From: Medakamo hakoo | Lineage: Eukaryota; Chlorophyta; Trebouxiophyceae; Coccomyxaceae | Length of the DNA stretch: 64,000 nucleotides | Reading direction: 5' to 3' | NCBI GenBank assembly: GCA_026636295.1 | Contig: CP089453.1 | Coordinates: 1,116,001 to 1,180,000 of the forward strand | Shown: positions 51,277 through 63,330 of the stretch, piece by piece | How positions within the stretch are numbered: the stretch's first letter is position 1 | Layout: every line of letters begins with the position of its first letter | The notes under the pieces: generated by a model | Seen by the model: the letters and a program-made list of their open reading frames with translations, nothing else | Database searches by the model: none | Told to the model about the DNA's origin: nothing | Made by a program: the position numbers and the translations under genes

Positions 51277-54200
51277 CTACGCCACCCCTTCCAACTGGTC
51301 GTCCACGTCGCTGTACGCGCGTTGCAGCGCTTCAATCAGCGCCGGGTCCGGGTTCTCCCACAGCCCGCGGCCCGCGCCCTCCAGCAGGCGCTTCACCGTG
51401 TTGCGGAAGGCTTCCGGGTTGGACGCCCGCAGCGTCGCGGCCATGCCTTCGTCCAGGACGTACGTCTGCGCCGCCTGCTCCCACGCCCAGTCGGCTTTGA
51501 AGGAGGTCGTCGCCCCCCACCCGACCATGGCGGTCAGGCGCTGCGAAATCTCGTACGCGCCGCCGCTGCCCTGCGCCGCCATGGCGGCCGCCCACTTGGG
51601 GTTGAGGAGCCGGGACCTGTACTCGAGGCGGAGGACGTCGTCCAGCTCGCGGGGCGGGGCGTCGCCCACGGCTTCGATGATGGAGACGGGGACGATGGCG
51701 GGAGGGGGGCCGCCGTCGCCGCCGCCGCCACCGCCGCCGCCGGTCCGCCCCGCCCGGCCGCGCGCGTCGGCGGCCGCCCGCGCGAGCGCGCCCGTGTTGG
51801 CGTAGTACTCCTGGATGTCGGTCAGCCCGTACTCGACGGAGTCGACGGTTTGGACGACCCGGTCCGTCGTGGCGAGGAGCGCGGCCAGGACTTCGGGCCG
51901 GGCCGCCCCGCGCTCGCCGCCCCGGCCGTACGAGAACGCGTTGCGCGACGCCCACGTGTCGCCGAGCTCGCCGCCCGACTCCCAGTTGCCGGCGCCGACG
52001 CGCTCGCCGACCATGGACCCGTAGTCGCCGGGCGGGTTGCAGAACAGGCGGGAGCTCGGCCGGGACTCCGGCCCCGCGTCCGCCGCGATGGCCGCCGCGT
52101 GCGCCTTGACGAAGTTGCGCTCCACCGGCTCGTCGGCCGACGCCGCGCGCGCAAACAGGTCGTCCAGCAGGTCGACGACGTTGGCGTACGTGTCCCGGAA
52201 GATGCCGGACATGTTGCACAGGACGTCGATGCGCGGCCGGCCGGGCGGGGACAGCTGGTCGAGCGGGACCAGCTCGAAGCGGCCGACCCGGCCCGTGCCT
52301 TCCGAGACGGGGACGGCGCCCACCAGGCGCAGCACCGTCGCCACGGACTCGCCGCGCGTCTTGATGGCGTCCAAGCCCCACAGGTTGACGGCCACCGTTT
52401 CCGGGTACGCGCCCCCGTGCGCCGCGGCGTGGGACGCCAGGATGGCGTCGGCGGCGGCGGACCCGCGCGCCACCGCGCCCGCGGACGGCATGCGGTACGG
52501 GTCGAGCGCGTGGATGTTGCGCCCCGTCGGCAGGACGCCGGGGCCGTCGCGCAGCAGGTCGCCGCCGGGCGCGGCGGGCACGTACGCGCCGTCCAGCGCG
52601 GTGAGGACGCCGCTGATCTCTTCGGGCGTGCGGGCGAGCAAGCCCGCGATGTCGGCGGCTTCGGCCAGGAGCGCGTCGTGCGCGGCGGTCGCGCCGGCGG
52701 CTCCGACCGCCGCCCGGCCGGCGTCCACGCCACCGCCCGCCGCGATGGCTTCCACGGCTTCGACTGGCAGGCGGTCGCCAAAGTACGCGCCCAGGTAAGA
52801 CGCGGCCTGCTCCGCGTCGGGCGCCGCGCCCAGGGTGTGCAGGCCCGACGAAAACAGGCGGGCCTCGACCGTGCGCAGGGCGGAGGCCAGCTCCGCCGCC
52901 CAGGCGGCAAACGTGTCGGGCGGCAGGGCGGCGATGGCGGACGCGGTGACGGGTTCCCCGGCCGGCAGCGGCGGCGGGCACTCGGAGGTGAGGCCGGCGG
53001 ACAGGGCGAGCGCCGCGATGGGCTCGGCCAGGGCCGCCCCGTCGGCCGCCGCCTCGCGCCACTCGCCCAGCAGCCCCGCCAGCTCGGCCAGCTGCTTGTA
53101 CAGGCCCGCCCGGCCGTACGGCGGGACGTTGTACGAGACGAGCGTGCCGTACCCCCGGCGCTTGGCAACGATGGACTCGGACGGGTTGTTGGCCGCGTAC
53201 ACGTAGACGTTGGGCAGGGCGCCCATCAGCACTTCGGACCAGGACAGGCCCGTGTTGCCCAGGGGCGCGCCCGGCAGCCATTCGACGGTGCCGTGCATGC
53301 CGAAGTGCAGGACCGCGTGCGCGTCGTAGGCCTTTTGCAGCCACAGGTAGAACGCCGCGTACTGCGGGTGCGGCGTCAGGTCGCGCTCGAACAGCAGGCG
53401 CATGGGGTCGCCCTCCAGCCCCAGCAGGGGCTGGACGGCGACCAGCAGGTTGCCCAGGGCCAGCCCGCCCACGACCGACGCGCCGTCCGCGTCGGTGGCG
53501 ATGCCGCGGTAGGTGGTCAGGTCGCCCCACTGGCGTTCCAGGCGGCGGGGCAGGGTGTCGGGCGCCGGGAGGAAGGGGAGCGGCCCCCACTCCGACGGGC
53601 CCCACGCCGACGGAAAGCTCAGCCACTCGCGCAGGCGGGACGGCGGGACGGATTCGGCGAGGACGGACGCGCCGTACCGGCCCGCGGGGCCGGGCCCCGC
53701 AGCGACCAGGCCGGCCCCGCCCCGCAGTGTGGACCGGGCGTCGGCTTGCTGGGCGCGCAGGGCTTCCACGACCGCGTCGCCGACGCCCGCCCACTTGTCG
53801 GCGCCGCCGCCGCCGTCGCCGCGCCCAGGCCCGCAGTCGTAGCCGGCGCCGTCCATGGCGGAGACGAGCGCGTCCAGGGAGGCAGGCACGTTCAGCAGGG
53901 CCGCCGTCCCCGTCGCGCCGACGCCGGGCGGGAAGCCATACAGCAGCGCCGCGACGCGGCGGTGCGCCCGCGGCGTGCGCGCCAGGCGCGCCCACGCCCG
54001 CACGCGCGCCGCCAGCGCGCGCACCCGCTCCGGCACGAGGAAGACGTCGCCGGCCGCCAGGCCGCCAAGTACGACGGCGTCAATGGAGCCGTCCAGCTCG
54101 GGCAGGGCGTACGTGACGACCGACTGCAGGCCGCCCACGCCGTCGCGCGCCCACGACGCAATGTCCTGGACGAGGAGCGGCGTCGCCACAAAGTACGGGA

Positions 54201-56120
54201 TGCGCTTGGCGCTCAGGATGTCGCGGGCGACGTCCGCGTTGCGGCCGCCCGCCATGGTGCCGGCCGGGCCGCCGACCAGCGGGAAGCCGATCGTGGAAAT
54301 GACCGCGTCGACGGGCACGGCCGAGGGCGAGGGCGCGCCGCCTGCCGTGACTTCGCTCGCTGACGTCAGCGCGTCCCGGACGACGGTGTGGGCCTCCACG
54401 CCGTTGATGAAGATGGGGATGGGGACCAGCCCCTCCTTCTCCAACAGCTCGATCAGGTGCGGGATGTAGGCCAGCTGGGACGTGACGTGTTTGCGGTAGA
54501 GCAACAGGCCGACGACAGGCGTGCCGGGCGGCGTAGCCGCGTCCCGGCCGGACGACGCCCGCCACGCCATGTAGTCGGACGGCGAGGTGAAGTAGTGCCC
54601 CGGGCGGGCCGGGTGGATGCAACCGGTCAGGGGCGCTTCCTGGACGGGCGGTGGAGGCGGGGTGGGGGTGGACGGAGGCGCAGGCGCGGGCGCGCCGCCC
54701 GTCCGCAGAAAGTCGAGCCCCCTCTGCCACCAGTCCCGGCTGTCGGCCGGCGCCGCAGCCTCGCCCCCGCTCGCCTTTGCCGTCAGGTACTTGTCGGCCA
54801 GGAAGACCAGCATGTTGCGCACGTTGGACCGGCCGCTCCCGTTCCAGTACGAATACACCGTCAGCCAGCTGGCCAGGTCGCCCGCTTTCTCGCCCGGGAT
54901 GAATTTCAGCAGCGCCGGCCCGACTTTCAAAAAGGATAGGTAGCCGACCATGCGGTCCTCTTCCTTGCCGGACCCAAACAGGCTCAACACTTTCTTGACG
55001 GCGGGCGGTGGGCCGGACGCCTTGCCCGGCGTGGACGCCATGGTGAAGGAGCCCAGGCGGGTCGTCGACATCAGTTCCAGGGCGGACTCGAACACGAGCC
55101 GCACAGGCACGTTGGCCGTGCGTTCGCGCAGCCATTCCACCTGGTCGTAGTCGAAGAGCAGTGACCCGAAAAAGGCGTCGGCGGTCGACAGGGCGTCCTC
55201 CAGCTCGGCGCGGCGCGGGCCGGCAATGTCAGTGTCGGAGAACACGGAGACGGCCAGGCCCGGCCGCGCCCGCGCCGCGTCGGCTGCCGCCTGTTCATAC
55301 AGGCGGGCGTTGAAGGCTTCGAAGCCGGTGACGATGACGACGCGGGCAGAGGTCGTGCGGGCGGTGGCGGGGGTTGACGCGTCGGCTGCTGCGAACACGG
55401 CCGCGCGCCTCTCCGCCGCCCGTTTTTCGGCGGCCGCGGCTTCCAACGCCGCCCGCACGGCGGCGGCGTCAGCCTCGGCCCGCGTGCGCCGGGCTTTCAG
55501 GTCGGAGATGGTGGCCTGGAAAGCACGCCAGCCGTCCGGGTTGGACCGGGCCTTGGCGTCCAAGAGCGCGCGCATGAGTGCCGGGTGGGAGCGGCCCAGG
55601 GCGCCAAAGGATGCTTCATTGAAGCGGGCCGGGAGCTCGGGCGGGCTGTCTCCTACGTTTTCGAGGTCCGGTTCGACGCCCGTAAAAGCGTTGGCGTAGG
55701 CCTCGTCGATCTGGGTTTGGAGGTCGCGGGCCTGGGAGTGTGTGTGTGTGTGGTGTGTGTGGTATGTGACGGATGGAGGGTTGAGAGGGTGGATGGATGG
55801 AGCCACGTCGTGGTGTGGTGGAAGAGGTTTTTGCGCTCCTCCATGCATTGGCCGGGCCGCCCCCGCCCTCTTCACTTGCCTGCGCCACCAGCCCGCCCAG
55901 CTGTTCGGACAAAGTCTCGCCCGACCCTGTCGCAGCTTCCAGCTCGCCGATGAAGCGTTCGGCTTGGGATAGCGGGGTGGGAGGTGGGGGTGCGGTCGTC
56001 GCGGCGTCGCGTTCGGCCGCGGCGCGAGGGCGGAGACCGGAGGTTCGCGGGCGAGGGGGTGGAGGGCGTGGACCAGTGGCCAGGCCCGGCCGGCCGGCCA
56101 GGCGTGCGGCCGGGCGCATT
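51277..56120 (-). CDS. CHLH2: Magnesium chelatase subunit H, second-paralogue type (CHLH2-like)
   Basis: Two exons, 55881-56120 and 51277-55731, give 1,564 residues. The leader [20 protein letters not shown] is a likely transit peptide. Residues of about 50-180 form a charged helical region ([46 protein letters not shown]) absent from canonical CHLH. The chelatase part starts [19 protein letters not shown] and has [40 protein letters not shown] and FHYVPE-free body motifs such as [20 protein letters not shown] and VLHFGMHG. This wording matches algal CHLH2 better than CHLH1/GUN5. The protein binds protoporphyrin IX and, with ChlI and ChlD, inserts magnesium. The intron 55732-55880 begins GCAAGT after CAG, a consensus GC-AG intron. 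Confidence 0.88.
55732..55880 (-). other. Candidate GC-AG intron in CHLH2
   Basis: The exon ends GCGCAG and the intron starts GCAAGT, the exact textbook GC-AG donor. The acceptor is TCCCAG. Joining VAQ to ARDLQTQID keeps the frame. No GT donor nearby does so as well. Confidence 0.72.
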
Positions 56121-56194: not shown

Positions 56195-56257
56195 GCAGAA
56201 CACCGTTGCCGGGGCGCGCCGCGCCAGCGGCGGCGCGCCCCGGCAACGGTGTTCTGC
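56195..56257. repeat. Perfect 28-base inverted repeat (hairpin)
   Basis: Left arm 56195-56222 and right arm 56230-56257 are exact reverse complements, separated by a 7-base loop (GCCAGCG). It lies about 75 bases upstream of the CHLH2 start. There is no coding role on either strand and no T-run, so it is not an obvious terminator. Confidence 0.9.
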
Positions 56258-56553: not shown

Positions 56554-56617
56554 ATCCATCCATCCATCCATCCATCCATCCATCCATCCATCCATCCATC
56601 CATCCATCCATCCATCC
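56554..56617. repeat. ATCC tetranucleotide microsatellite
   Basis: About 16 uninterrupted ATCC units in the CHLH2-AP2 intergenic region. Plain simple repeat. Confidence 0.95.
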
Positions 56618-56735
56618 ACGCACACACTCACGCTCCTCTCTCACGCCTTCACACTTCCGTCCCTTTCACATCCGCCATGACCAGCGCAAGGTACGCCTCG
56701 ATGTGGAAGACCGGCTTGGTCCCCGCGATCAGGCG

Positions 56736-56775
56736 GGCATCAAACTTGGCGGCAGCCGCCGCCAAGTTTGATGCC
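56736..56775. repeat. Perfect 18-base inverted repeat (hairpin)
   Basis: Arms 56736-56753 and 56758-56775 are exact reverse complements with a 4-base loop (AGCC). Because of the symmetry, both strands can read the same SNLAAAAAKFDA string. Confidence 0.9.
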
Positions 56776-57513: not shown

Positions 57514-60500
57514 ATGACGGACGAGGCGCGCATTGAAGGCGCTAAGCGCGCGCTTTCCCCGCCGCGCGCCCCGCAGGCCCGCCCGGCCTCCGCGCCCGCC
57601 GCCTCGCCCTTTGCGGCGCTAGCCACCGTCCCTCTGGTGGCTGGTGGCGGTGGCGCGGCGACCGGCGACGAAAACGCGGGCCCGGCCAACACCGGCACCG
57701 GCGCGCGCGACCCTCCCCGCGGCGCCGCCCCCCCGCCTCTGGCTGGGCCGTGACCATCGACCCGTCCACCGGCGCCTGGACGGCCGCGGCCCCGCCGCCG
57801 CCGCCCATCAAGATGACGCCCGTCGCCGCACCGGACGCCGAACCCACGGGCACGACGCCCGCCTCCGGCGGCTCGTCCGGTGGTGGAGGCGTGCGCAAGT
57901 CGGGCCGCCCGCGTGCGCCGCGCCCCACCCGCAGCCCGGCTGGGGGTGTCACCAAGTCACGCGCGCGCGCCGCGTCTCGCGGCCGGTCCAGTGATGGCGG
58001 CACGGGCGCGGCTGCGGCCGCCGCGGCCCTGGCCGCCGTCGCCGCCGCCGCCCTGGGCGACGGCGCTCCTGCCGAGCCCTCGACCACGACCGGCGGCCGC
58101 GGCGGCGGTGGATCGGCCGGCGGCGCTGCCCGCACCCGCACCGCCGCCCCGCCCCGCTTCCGCAACGTGGTCTGGCACAAGGCGTCTTCCCGCTGGGAGG
58201 CGCGCGTCATGGAGAACGGGACGCCCCGCTGCCTGGGCTTCTTCGTGCGCGAAGCCGACGCGAGCGCGGCGTGCGAGGCGGAAGCCGCGCGCATGGTCGC
58301 CGAAGGCCGCGGCCCGCCGCAGGTGTACGCGTCCGCCGCGGCCGCCGCGGCCGCGGCTGCTGTCGCCGCTGCCAAAGCGGGTGGCGGCCGTGGCTCCGGC
58401 CGCGCCGCGTCTGGTGGCGGGCCGGCCGTGTCCGGCGCCGCCTCGGACGCGGGCACAACGCCGCGCGCGCGCCCGCGCTCGTCGGCGCCGCCGCCGCCCG
58501 CCGACGCCAGCGGCGACGGCACGGCGACCGCCCTGCCGGGCGACGTCCTGGTCGGGTCGGGCGACGTGGCCGTGCCGGCGGCCCCGCCTGCGGCTGGCGC
58601 GCCCGCGCCCGCGCCCGCGGCCCCAGCTGCCCGCCCCGCGTCGGGCGGCTCCAAAGGCTCGTCCGCCTACCGGGGCGTGTCCTGGAACTCCAACTGCGGG
58701 AAGTGGCGGGCCCAGGTCTGGAAAGGGTCGGACGTCCACCACCTGGGCTACTTTGAAGACGAGGCCGCCGCGGCGCGCGCGTACGACGCGGCCGTGCTCT
58801 CGCTGCGCGGCCCGACCGCGCCGACCAACTTTTGCCCGTCCGAGTATGGCTACCCTCCGCGCCCGGCCGCCCCGCCGGGAGGGGCCGGGCGCCGGACCCG
58901 CCGCCCGTCCTCGTCCGGCAAAGCCACCGGCAGCGGCGGTGGTGGGGTGTCGGGTGGCGCGCCTGCCGCGCCCGCCGCGCCTGCCGCGCCCGCCGCAAAA
59001 AAAGCCGGCACGCCCGGCCCTGGCGGGAAAGTCGCCCGCCCCATCAAGCGCCCGTCCGCGGCGGCTGCCGCTGCTGCCGCTGCCGCTACCGCTGAGTCCG
59101 CGCACAAGGCCGCCCTGGCGGCGGCGGCGGAAGCGGCGGCCCGCGTGCCCGCGCCTCCGGGCGTTGGTGGCGGCGCGGCCGCCGCGTCCGCGCCCGCCGC
59201 CCCACCGGCGGCCGACGGCTCCCAGCCCGCCGGCGAAGACGATTCGGCCTACCTGGGCGTCTCCCGCGCGCCCGACGGCCACGGCTGGGTCGCCGAACTG
59301 TGGGACGGCAACGCGTTTGTGCTGGTCGGCACGTACGCGACGGAAGTCGGCGCGGCGCGCGCGTACGACCGCGCGTGCGCCGCGCTGCACGGCGCCGCCG
59401 CCGCCGTCGTCAACTTCCCGGGCGAGGTGGCGCCCGCCGAACCGGCCGTCTCGGACGTCGACTCGAAGAATGAGCTGGAACTGTCGGCTGTTGAAGGTAC
59501 GCATGAGGAGAGGAGAGAGAGAGTGGCCGGGGGGGGGGGCCAAGCAGGCGGCACGCGCCGTTCATCACTCACGCCGCGCCCACCCATTCCCACACCCAAC
59601 AGCCCTGGCCTCCTTTTCCATGGACCACGACGCGGCCGCCGTCGACACAGACGGTCCAGCCGCGCCGGAGGCGGCGGCGGTGGAGGCGGCGGAAGAGGGC
59701 GGTGGTGGTGCGGCCGCGGCAGCCGCTCCAGCGCCCGCAGCAGCCGCGGCAGCCGCGGCTCCCGGCCCTGCGCCACCCCGCCCCGTCGTCGCCGTCCCCC
59801 CGACCGTGCTGGAGACCGAACCTGACGGCGCGTCCCCGCGCGAGTCGTGCGTGCCGGGCGCGCTGTTCGGCCCGTCCGGCGCGGGCCCGTCTGGCCGCGC
59901 GGCGGCCGCGGCCGTCGAACCGGCGGGCACGGCCGGCGGCGGCGTGGGCGAGCCAGGCCCCACGGGCGCCGTCGCGCCCGGCGCGGCGGGCGACGCGGGC
60001 GTCGCGACGTCTCCCCTGCGCCCGCTGCGCCCGGCCAACCACGCGGCGGCGCCGGCGGCGGCGGCGGCCGCTGCACCTGCCGCGGCTGCTGGACCGCCCC
60101 CACCCCCGCCGCCCGCGGCCGACGACGACGCCAACGCCGCCGCGGCCGCCCTGTTTGGCATGCTGGCCGCGCCCGCCCCGTCGTCCCGCGGCCGGTCCGC
60201 CGGGTCGGCCGGCGCTGGCCGCGGACGGTCGTCCCTGCCGTCCACCGGCCGCGCGTGCGGCTCCACGCCGACCCCGCCGCCCGGCGGTGGCGGCGGCGGC
60301 GCGTCGGGCGGCGGCCCCCCGCCCGGCGTCGGCCCACCCGCCCCGCCAGGCAAGTCCTGCGCCTACAAGGGCGTCTCCTGGCACAAGCACTCTCAAAAGT
60401 GGTATGCCTACATCCAGGCGGGCGGCCGCATGCGCGGGCTGGGCTATTACGCCGACCCGGCCGCCGCGGCCGCCGCGTACGACACCGAGGCCCGCCGCGT

Positions 60501-63330
60501 CCACGGGCGCCACGCCGTCCTCAACTTCCCGGAGGGGCCGCCGCCTGAAGCTGTGGCGGCCCTGGCGGCGGCGTCGGGTGCGCGCCGCCCGGGCGGCGCG
60601 CCGTCCGCGGCTGCCGCGGCCGCTGCCGCGTTTGCGGCTGACCAGGCCCGCCGCGGCACGACCGCTGGCGAGTCGGCCGAGTCGGAGGGCGCCGACGAAG
60701 CGCCCGGGCCGTTGGCCGGTGCCGGTGATGGCGCTGGGTCCCGCCCGCGCCCGCGCCCGGCGCCGGCTGCCGCCCGCCCCGCGTCGGCCGTCTCCTGGTC
60801 CACGGACGGTGGCGAAGCCGTCGTCCCGCCGCCGGCCGGCCTCGCGCCGGTGGCGGGCGGCCACGGCGGTGTGGGCGGGGCTGGCACGGCCGACGACCCG
60901 ACCCCACGCTCCGAGCTGCGCCGGCCCGGCGCTGGCGCCGTCGCCAAACCCGGCGGCGGCGGCGGCGGCGGCGGCCGCGTCGTCGCGGGCCTGCTGCGCT
61001 CGCTGGGCGCGGCCGCCGCCGCGGGCGGCGCGGCGTCCGACTCTGACGCGGGCGGCGCCACGCCCACCGCCGCGGATGCGGCCGCCCGGCGCCGGGCGCG
61101 CAAGCCGTCTCGCGTCTATTCGGCTGCCGGTGAAGGCCCGGCCCAGTACGGCGCCACGGCCGCGGGCGCCCAAGCCGCGGCGGCGGCGGCGGCCGCCGTC
61201 AAGGCGGCCCCGGCTCCCATCCCGGCCCGCGCGTCCCGCCCGCCGCGCGCGGCCGCGGCCGGCGCGGCCGCCGCCGTCCAGGCCGCCCTGGGCGCCGGCA
61301 TCCCGCCGCCCTCCCCGCCCCGCCCCGCGCCCGCGGCGCCGCCGCTGCCCGCGCACACGTCTGCCGTCGGCGACGGCGCGGCCAAGCTCGTCGCGGCCCT
61401 GGCCGCGGCGTCGGCGCCGCCGCCGCCGCCGCCGGGCTCTGGCCCGCCGCCCTCCCGCTTCCGGGGCACGACCTGGCTGGAGCGCGAGCGCAAGTGGCTG
61501 GCCCGCGTCTGGGACGGCACCCGCCAGATCGTCATCGGCCGCTTCGAACGGGAGGAAGACGCGGCGGTGGCGCACGACCGGGAGGCCCTGCGCCTGCGCG
61601 GCCCGGGCGCGGCCGTCAACTTCCCCGAACTGCGCGCGGTCTACTGCCCGGGCGCGGGTGGCGCGGGGCCCGCGGGAGCGGGTGCGTGCGGTGCGGCCGC
61701 GTCCGCCCCGGCCGCGGCCGCCACGCTGGCGGCTTTGACCGCCGCGGCGGGCGTGCCGGCGCCGCCCGCGCCCGCGCACGCCGCGTGCACGCCCCAGGCC
61801 GCGGTCGAGGCCGCGGCCAAAGCCCTGGCCGACGCCCTGGCCGCCGTCCAGAAGCAGCAGGTGCCGGGCACGGCCGCGCCCGGCCCGCCGCCACACCCGC
61901 CTCCGCCGGCGTCGGACGACCCGGACGCGGACGAGTCGGACGCCCTGGCCGCCGCCGACGCGGATGCGCTCGCGTCGCTGGCCGACGCCGCGGGCGCGGC
62001 GGCCTCGCCCACGCGCGCCAAGACGTCCCGCTTCCGCGGCGTCTGCCTCAACTCGGCGACGGGCCGCTGGATCGCCTTCCTGGACAAGTCCGTCAAGCGC
62101 GGCCGGTACGTCGGCTCCTTCTTCACGGAAGAGGACGCGGCGCGGGCGTACGACGACGCGGCGTACCGCGTGTACGGACCCGGGGCCGCGCTGAACTGGC
62201 CGCTGGTGGCCGGGCCGGACGGCGGCCTCCTGCCCCCGCCGCCGCCGCCGCCGGGCGCCACCCAGCCGGGCGGCCACAAGGGCTCCTCCCAATACCGCGG
62301 CGTCTCCCGCCACGAGCGGACGGGCAAGTGGGAGGTCCGCGTCTGGGCCGCGGGCAAACAAAACTTTGTGGGGTCGTTTGACGACGAGGCGGCCGCGGGC
62401 CGGGCGTACGACGCGGCCGTGCTGCGCCGGTCGGGCCGGGCGGACGCCCGCCTGTTGGCGCGGCTCAACTTCCCCGAAGAAGTCGTCGCCCGCCGGGCGG
62501 CCGCGGCCGCGCGCGCGAGTGGCGTGGCGGGCGCGGAGGAAGAAGGCGGCGCGCCCGCCGACCCGACCACCGCTGCCCCTCCCGCCGCCGCGTCCGCCCA
62601 GCCCCGGTCCGGCACGTCCTCCCGCTACCGGGGCGTCTCCCTGAACAAGTCGGCGGGCCGGTGGGAGGCCCGCCTCCACGACCGGGGGCGCAACCATTAC
62701 ATCGGCTCGTTCGACGACGAGGGCTCGGCCGCCCGCGCCTTTGACGCCGCCGCCCTGGCGCTGCGCGGTTCCGCCGCGCCCACCAACTTTCCGGCGGACG
62801 AGTACAGCCCGGCCGATTTGGCCGCCGCCCGCGCTCGCCTGGGCTTGGCCGCCGCCGCCGCCGTCGCGACGGCCGCGACGGCTGCGGCCGCGCGCGCGTT
62901 TGGCGGCGGGCCGGGCGGCGTGGGCGTGCCCCCGCCGCAGCCGCCGCCGCCCGCGTCCCGGCCGGTGACGGCTGGGCCGGCGCCGCCGCCCGCCACGCCC
63001 GCCGCGGACGGTGGACATGCTGCGGACGCTGGTGCAGCGGCGCCGGCGCCCGCTGCATGGGGCGGGAAGCGCCCGCGCTCTGCCGCGACGACGGCGGCGG
63101 CGGCGGCCGCCCCGCCGCCCACGGCCGCCGCCACCATCACGGTGGTTGGCGGCGGCGGTGAGGCGGACGCCAAACGTGCGCGCTTGGACTCGGCGGGCGG
63201 CGTGCCGCGGGCTGCCCTGCCCCTGCCGGGCGGGACGGTGCTGACGGTCGGTGGTGGCGCGGCCGCCCCGCCGCCGCCGACGGTGACGCCCGCGCCAGCG
63301 CCGGCGGGGCCGGGCGTCAAGGCCGAATGA
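57514..63330 (+). CDS. Eight-AP2-domain putative transcription factor
   Basis: Two main exons end at 59496 (donor GTACGC) and resume at 59603, running to a stop at 63330. The protein is about 1,800-1,900 residues. Eight AP2 domains start near 58153 (degenerate), 58661, 59243 (degenerate), 60358, 61453, 62026, 62287 and 62620. Examples are SAYRGVSWNSNCGKW then LGYFEDEAAAARAYD; SQYRGVSRHERTGKW then VGSFDDEAAAGRAYD; and SRYRGVSLNKSAGRW then IGSFDDEGSAARAFD. The YRG and RAYD elements of AP2/ERF domains are kept in most. Linkers are long Ala/Pro/Gly runs. The 5' end is unresolved: ATG at 57514 opens a frame (MTDEARIEGAKRALSPP) ending at 57753, whereas the AP2 frame has its first ATG at 57813. A one-base difference in the C run at 57728-57734, or an intron ending at 57812, could connect them. 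Confidence 0.85.

Follow-up and report, generated by a model that had tools for sequence, protein, structure and literature searches.

A Medakamo hakoo protein with eight AP2 units is apparently a slightly reduced representative of an old multi-AP2 type of algae

Background

AP2 factors of land plants contain one or two AP2 domains as a rule. According to the accessible parts of the respective publications, the linker of ANT measures 25 aa (PMC6361745), both AP2 domains of WRI1 recognise DNA jointly, and four Arg contact bases in ERF/DREB, with four Arg and one Glu being named as DNA contacts for rice DREB1A (PMC12249877). The number of AP2 domains in ApiAP2 proteins is given as one to four, some members having an ACDC domain in addition, and the three AP2 domains of one malaria ApiAP2 factor were associated with different motifs (PMC6631176). 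For the algal class to which Medakamo hakoo belongs, seven AP2 domains were given for CsuAP2-007 of Coccomyxa subellipsoidea C-169, next to genes labelled Vvi, Vca, and Cre with three AP2 domains each (PMC4982375), and two three-domain AP2 proteins were reported from Auxenochlorella in a text citing 3 and 7 domains for green algae (PMC7811268; all as far as the accessible sections go). Since 3- and 7-domain proteins of green algae are thus already in print, the M. hakoo protein with eight AP2 units presented here adds to a known type. No description of an eight-domain AP2 protein was found in the open-access literature searched, and a search of the main text of the M. hakoo genome paper for AP2 gave no occurrence (PMC9871001).

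Methods

The analysed stretch of 64,000 nucleotides (contig CP089453.1, positions 1,116,001 to 1,180,000; hereafter the window) stems from the M. hakoo genome of 15,638,232 bases in 16 contigs, with the AP2 gene being located on contig C2. Each of the eight units (D1 to D8) was searched separately with Pfam PF00847 (curated cut-off 33.3 bits). A second profile was built from 89 units, excluding the M. hakoo rows and including the D1 orthologues of other algae; of 201 control sequences (the protein in reverse plus 200 shuffled versions), none was matched by this profile at E<1e-3. Relatives were collected by three protein searches with about 8000 candidates scored per search, yielding 38 proteins, 36 of which were scanned for units. 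Units in relatives were counted with our first AP2 model at E<1e-3. The domain tree (109 units, 62 columns) was unrooted, its bootstraps had not settled, and it contained ten long branches. Reciprocal best matches were computed against 18 proteins.

Nine columns were taken as DNA-facing, presumably corresponding to the contact positions of AtERF1, and were transferred by alignment; the placing of the four base-contacting Arg of ERF/DREB on the AtERF1 columns is likewise our own mapping. The gene labels Vvi, Vca, and Cre were read by us as grape, Volvox, and Chlamydomonas. Faces were compared among 54 units in eight position classes. AlphaFold2 models of D6-D8 (mean pLDDT 79.6) and D1-D2 (67.2, with low values for the linker) covered five of the eight units and were compared with known structures using Foldseek.

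Results

As originally predicted from the sequence, a single gene carries eight AP2-like units: the 89-unit profile detected 8/8, in order between 58155 and 62802, with E-values of 7e-10 to 1e-28, and a six-frame scan of 57514-63330 with the same profile returned exactly these eight and nothing else (Table 1). The check suggested along with this prediction, i.e., searching the eight segments with PF00847, gave E<0.001 for 7/8 units, which is above the limit of four set for its refutation; two of eight scored above the curated cut-off, and D6 fell short of it by 0.1 bit. D1 was found by the 89-unit profile and not by Pfam because the former includes its algal orthologues. A number of AP2 units beyond what land plants usually carry was hence borne out, and the division into six good and two decayed units held in part: D1 is clearly decayed (FRN, with RAYD and the NF end absent), strict YRG and RAYD occur together in D2 and D7 only, and D6 keeps FRG and RAYD while the DNA-facing residues of its class are absent. 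The units are separated by seven Ala/Pro/Gly-rich linkers of 26 to 305 residues. Neither a B3 domain (both exons) nor an ACDC domain was among the Pfam matches listed, and no NCBIfam match was listed for the AP2 gene.

Table 1 Features of the AP2 gene and its surroundings, with profile scores and the support of positional clades in the domain tree
Feature	Position	Strand	Score or remark	Clade support
AP2 gene, Medakamo hakoo	57514-63330	+	one gene, eight AP2-like units
5' part up to intron donor	57514..59496	+	ATG 57514 and D1-D3 in different frames
D1, decayed AP2 domain	58155..58301	+	Pfam 9.9 bits, E 1.2; relatives' model E 7e-10	97/96 (Micractinium_1, eukprotTreb_1, Myrmecia_1, Coccomyxa_1)
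D2, AP2 domain	58659..58847	+	Pfam 38.9 bits	97/89
D3, AP2 domain	59241..59426	+	Pfam 28.0 bits	93/95
Linker motif SAVEALASFS, intron-interrupted	59484..59619	+	uninterrupted in P0002 and P0004
Intron, 106 bp, GT-AG, frame-restoring	59497..59602	+	spliced peptide conserved across junction
Last exon, ending in TGA	59603..63330	+
D4, AP2 domain	60355..60537	+	Pfam 21.7 bits	100/96
Linker D4-D5	60538..61452	+	without AP2 match; four relatives have one extra unit here
D5, AP2 domain	61453..61632	+	Pfam 19.9 bits, E 0.00096	100/96 (Coccomyxa_6, ENAalga_5, JGImeta_5)
D6, AP2 domain, class-typical DNA-facing residues lost	62023..62205	+	Pfam 33.2 bits	91/88 (Chlorophyceae included)
D7, AP2 domain, 26 residues beyond D6	62284..62481	+	Pfam 25.7 bits	99/87 (Chlorophyceae included)
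D8, AP2 domain	62617..62802	+	Pfam 36.7 bits	99/58 with Apatococcus_2, 97/82 without
KRPR basic motif in WGGKRPR	63067..63078	+	possible nuclear localisation signal
KRAR, second basic motif	63172-63183	+
ChlH, magnesium chelatase subunit H	51277-55800	-	divergent neighbour of AP2 gene
Perfect hairpin	56195-56257		28-nt arms, 7-nt loop; between chlH and AP2 gene
CCAT tandem repeat	56556-56620		upstream of AP2 gene
Perfect hairpin	56736-56775		18-nt arms, 4-nt loop; between chlH and AP2 gene

D1-D3 share one reading frame and D4-D8 another, and both are reconciled by the intron listed in Table 1. In M. hakoo, the peptide SAVEALASFS exists only after splicing; in P0002 (ENA alga) and P0004 (JGI metagenome), the two proteins closest in sequence, SAVEALAS(F/I)S stands unbroken at the same place in the linker between the third and fourth unit, and counterparts were found in Coccomyxa P0022 (SALEALASIS) and Botryococcus P0023 (EALASMS). 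As this linker motif is unbroken in relatives at the place of the intron, the AP2 gene is, judging from sequence, most likely continuous. Further motifs are common to these linkers, namely DGASPRES and VATSPLRP between D3 and D4 (M. hakoo, P0002, and P0004) and RKPS.VY between D4 and D5 (M. hakoo and P0004, with a similar stretch in P0002). A false joining of two or more genes would agree with the frame change in the 5' part and with the frequency of chance long open frames at such a GC content (81% in this stretch, whose opposite strand has an open frame of 1293 aa); it is highly improbable given that the order of units and the linker motifs recur within individual predicted proteins from other algae and that the intron falls inside a conserved linker motif.

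With respect to the predicted extent of the gene, the stop codon (63328-63330) was confirmed, whereas the frame of the assumed start ATG 57514 already terminates at 57753; the first ATG of the D1-D3 frame is located at 57814. Since twelve GT-AG pairs (e.g., 57628-57812) would fuse both frames, the start at ATG 57514 may be right, given one extra intron. The acceptors of all twelve lie beyond 57738. Alternatively, the frame change may stem from an error of one base in the length of the seven-C run at 57728-57734. N-terminal stretches around this change weakly resemble those of Coccomyxa when read by eye (SPFAA; GWAVTIDPSTGAWTAAA vs GWGVRWNEKAKRWEARA), and the likeness of the latter two, if real, would be retained by none of the twelve candidate introns.

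The largest unit numbers among the relatives were those of Coccomyxa sp. Obi 'CRL5-like' (P0022; 13), Myrmecia bisecta WJX72_001315 (P0001; 12), and Botryococcus braunii Bobra.0367s0009 (P0023; 10), followed by P0002 and P0004 (8 each), Micractinium and Apatococcus (4 each), and several Chlorophyceae (Haematococcus, Chlamydomonas sp. UWO 241, Gonium, Sanguina, and two Volvox; 3 to 6), with some of the counted units scoring poorly (below 20 bits for one unit of Myrmecia and for one of Coccomyxa) and several of the gene models being partial or beginning within a unit. No protein of C. reinhardtii was among the approximately 8000 candidates scored per search, which says nothing on its absence. 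P0002 and P0004 contain D2-D8 in order with shared linkers and end after D8; their models begin within D2, and they have one more unit than M. hakoo between D4 and D5.

In the domain tree, all eight M. hakoo units clustered with units of the same position in other species. Matched positions amounted to 7/8 in Myrmecia (without D5) and 7/8 in Coccomyxa (without D7), and in Botryococcus D2 and D4 only were clearly matched. Reciprocal best matches were collinear in both Myrmecia (D2, D3, D4, D7, and D8 corresponding to units 2, 3, 4, 7, and 9) and Coccomyxa (D2-D5 and D8 corresponding to units 2, 3, 4, 6, and 8); D1 had a reciprocal best match in 0/18 proteins and D6 had none with Myrmecia or Coccomyxa. 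As the clades of D6 and D7 include Chlorophyceae, these two units appear to be older than the split between Trebouxiophyceae and Chlorophyceae.

A tree of single domains had been proposed as a check, and tandem expansion had been suggested as a possible source of multivalent binding to arrays of sites. Several AP2 units do sit on one chain, and more homogeneous arrays exist in other multi-AP2 proteins, with mean sibling identities of 0.78 (P0003), 0.72 (P0025), and 0.65 (P0027); over five other 6- to 8-unit proteins, the values ranged from 0.57 to 0.78 in P0003, P0005, P0025, and P0027 and reached 0.50 in P0010. In the M. hakoo protein, mean sibling identity is 0.40, the faces of the units differ, and the units cluster by position across genera and not among themselves, with relatives having as many as 12 and 13. 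Recent tandem expansion was accordingly rejected based on the domain tree and the sibling identities, and as an account of this protein, including multivalent binding to arrays of one site, it is very unlikely.

The extra unit between D4 and D5 occurs in P0002, P0004, P0022, and P0023 (clade support 100/98) and is lacking in M. hakoo. Coccomyxa, Myrmecia, and Botryococcus moreover have C-terminal units for which M. hakoo has no counterpart; no AP2 match was obtained in the adjoining downstream stretch (L027), and the remaining AP2 loci of the genome (a lower bound) are situated elsewhere. The M. hakoo protein therefore looks reduced by the D4-D5 unit and the C-terminal set, and we infer losses in M. 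hakoo instead of gains elsewhere. By parsimony on the unrooted tree, the C-terminal loss probably predates that of the D4-D5 unit because P0002 and P0004 likewise end after D8. Altogether, the protein looks like a member of an old algal type that has somewhat shrunken and has not newly expanded.

At the predicted facing columns, units of the same position had an identity of 0.696 across species (150 pairs; as the position classes were taken from the tree, this value is not independent of it), compared with 0.234 for units at different positions within a protein (106 pairs). In these two comparisons, the helix gave 0.621 and 0.492, and the other sheet columns gave 0.685 and 0.420. The faces are thus about as conserved across species as the other sheet columns, and they differ far more between positions than the other parts do. 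When labels were shuffled within proteins, the observed value was reached in 0/2000 cases (highest 0.428). Sibling faces also differ in unrelated multi-AP2 proteins (P0027 0.31, P0010 0.27); hence, diverse faces are in themselves nothing special, and what counts is their conservation across species. Since the predicted faces are kept per position across species and have little in common between positions, a factor reading several different sub-sites is favoured over one binding arrays of a single site. Of the two options that the original prediction had offered, multivalent binding to one kind of site is consequently disfavoured by faces that differ sharply within the protein and are kept across species, and units differing in specificity are in line with the predicted faces. 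The four base-contacting Arg of ERF/DREB are absent at the mapped columns in 8/8 units, so that sub-site specificity is not readable from the sequence.

The positions are not equally constrained. All nine predicted facing residues of D4 are identical in 6/6 species and 8/9 facing columns of D5 are identical across 4 species, the face of D3 varies between species, and D1 and D6 of M. hakoo are without the facing residues typical of their position. Such a pattern could also arise if DNA were bound by a core only (about D2, D7, and D8), the other units being protein-interaction or spacer modules. The eroded faces of D1 and D6, the variable face of D3, and the Pfam scores of D4 and D5, which are the lowest after D1, would fit this explanation; the conservation in D4 and D5 suggests a kept surface, not necessarily one for DNA, and speaks against it. 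Overall, binding by the core only is considered rather unlikely.

Three strands and a helix were modelled for D1, D2, D6, D7, and D8, whereby the models were built with alignments of the relatives and that of D1 is no independent proof of its folding. For both models, the first PDB match was the Arabidopsis WRI1-DNA complex 7wq5, with an E-value of 8e-8 to a DNA complex among the plant AP2 matches. Weak matches (E 0.06 and above) to chains of Toxoplasma mitoribosomes were obtained as well; AP2-like chains in these structures are reportedly the subject of a published study. A role outside transcription, e.g., in RNA binding or in an organellar ribosome, might be read from these matches, and is extremely improbable in view of the far stronger plant AP2 matches and of a basic motif of nuclear type. 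The latter motif, WGxKRPR, is also present close to the C-terminus of the Myrmecia and Apatococcus proteins, and is absent from Botryococcus and from the closest relatives P0002 and P0004. Owing to this patchy occurrence, nuclear targeting from what is a common kind of basic motif is only a guess.

The AP2 gene lies divergently to a gene for ChlH (Pfam CobN-Mg_chel E 1.5e-269; NCBIfam BchH 1215.6 bits). The two hairpins between these genes are the window's only perfect ones (arms >=15 nt, loop <=20 nt), as compared to 0 in five base shuffles, and the 21-base core of the first one matched the genome at its own two arms only (<=1 mismatch).

Elsewhere in the genome, locus L024 (963-5066, contig C4) contains an open frame of 1367 aa that begins like a ubiquitin carboxyl-terminal hydrolase (Pfam UCH E 1e-8) and also comprises AP2 units (3 by Pfam, 4 by our own model) and a Pro/Gly/Ala stretch with internal repeats. 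The subsequent open frame looked endonuclease/exonuclease-like by eye and had no Pfam match at E 0.01; the odd union of domains in L024 is possibly part of a mobile element. A second multi-AP2 gene with three units, L029 (1764-2693, contig C11), appears to correspond to P0016 (Elliptochloris) and P0031. That other multi-AP2 loci make up the missing C-terminal set was not supported, the units of C4 and C11:364 not grouping with Myrmecia_11 or Coccomyxa_10-11. In the domain tree, Myrmecia_5 is the partner of MhC4c (88/88), and MhC6 showed a weak grouping (81/49) with the C-terminal units Myrmecia_12, Coccomyxa_12, and Botryococcus_9.

Discussion

With moderate confidence, the M. hakoo protein is regarded as a transcription factor acting in the nucleus and belonging to an old chlorophyte type with numerous AP2 domains in one chain; these domains, each with a position-specific face, would read several short sites. 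DNA binding, different specificities, and nuclear action are what we infer for it from the sequence data. The protein would dock on composite regulatory regions, where several different short sites could be read simultaneously, each unit contributing its own position-specific DNA-reading face. Its core would be the close pair D6-D7 together with D8, with a spacing like that of land-plant AP2 factors with two domains. The Ala/Pro/Gly linkers might serve both as flexible tethers and as segments for activation or repression. Part of this machine would have been dismantled in M. hakoo through loss of an internal unit and of the C-terminal set, with D1 and D6 being in the process of erosion. A more tentative extension, which we hold to be possible and not yet probable, is that core chlorophytes inherited one single giant AP2 factor of about a dozen units, each with a fixed face, by which long composite regulatory sites are read as a whole, and of which M. 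hakoo would possess a natural deletion version. If this is true, the wiring of the regulon could be read from the sub-sites that are still needed in M. hakoo.

Among known systems, the single-domain ERF/DREB factors with their four base-contacting Arg differ from the M. hakoo protein in both respects, and RAV proteins have a B3 domain beside AP2, which was not among the matches listed for the M. hakoo exons. The land-plant AP2 subfamily (ANT, WRI1; 7wq5) has the AP2 fold in common with the M. hakoo units, and the D6-D7 spacing of 26 residues is close to the ANT linker; its members have two domains joined by a short linker, whereas M. hakoo has eight units with long linkers among them, and the facing residues differ. 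For the AP2 family PF00847 as a whole, the profile matches all units except D1, and sheet and helix are present in the five modelled units. ApiAP2 proteins similarly carry AP2 domains within large proteins of little similarity beyond these domains; ACDC, present in some of them, was not among the matches listed for M. hakoo. The malaria ApiAP2 factor described above is a precedent for different readers in one chain.

The closest likeness is to the multi-AP2 proteins of other Trebouxiophyceae. Units of Myrmecia P0001 and Coccomyxa P0022 match those of M. hakoo by position and are collinear, two positions are clearly matched in Botryococcus P0023, and the intron-split linker motif is common to M. 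hakoo and P0022 and partly to P0023. Within this orthologue group, M. hakoo shares unit position and order as well as the linker motif and does not have the full set of 12-13 units: P0022 and P0023 carry the D4-D5 unit and all three carry the C-terminal set, both of which are absent from M. hakoo. CsuAP2-007, from the same algal class and also with many AP2 domains in one gene, probably belongs to the same family, judging by its published description. Neither the matching of units by position nor the pattern of the faces was found in print in the accessible parts of the open-access literature searched. Taken together, units matched by position and faces kept per position make the multi-AP2 proteins a testable case of many fixed, different readers in one protein, for which M. 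hakoo with its 15.6 Mb genome offers a convenient reduced version.
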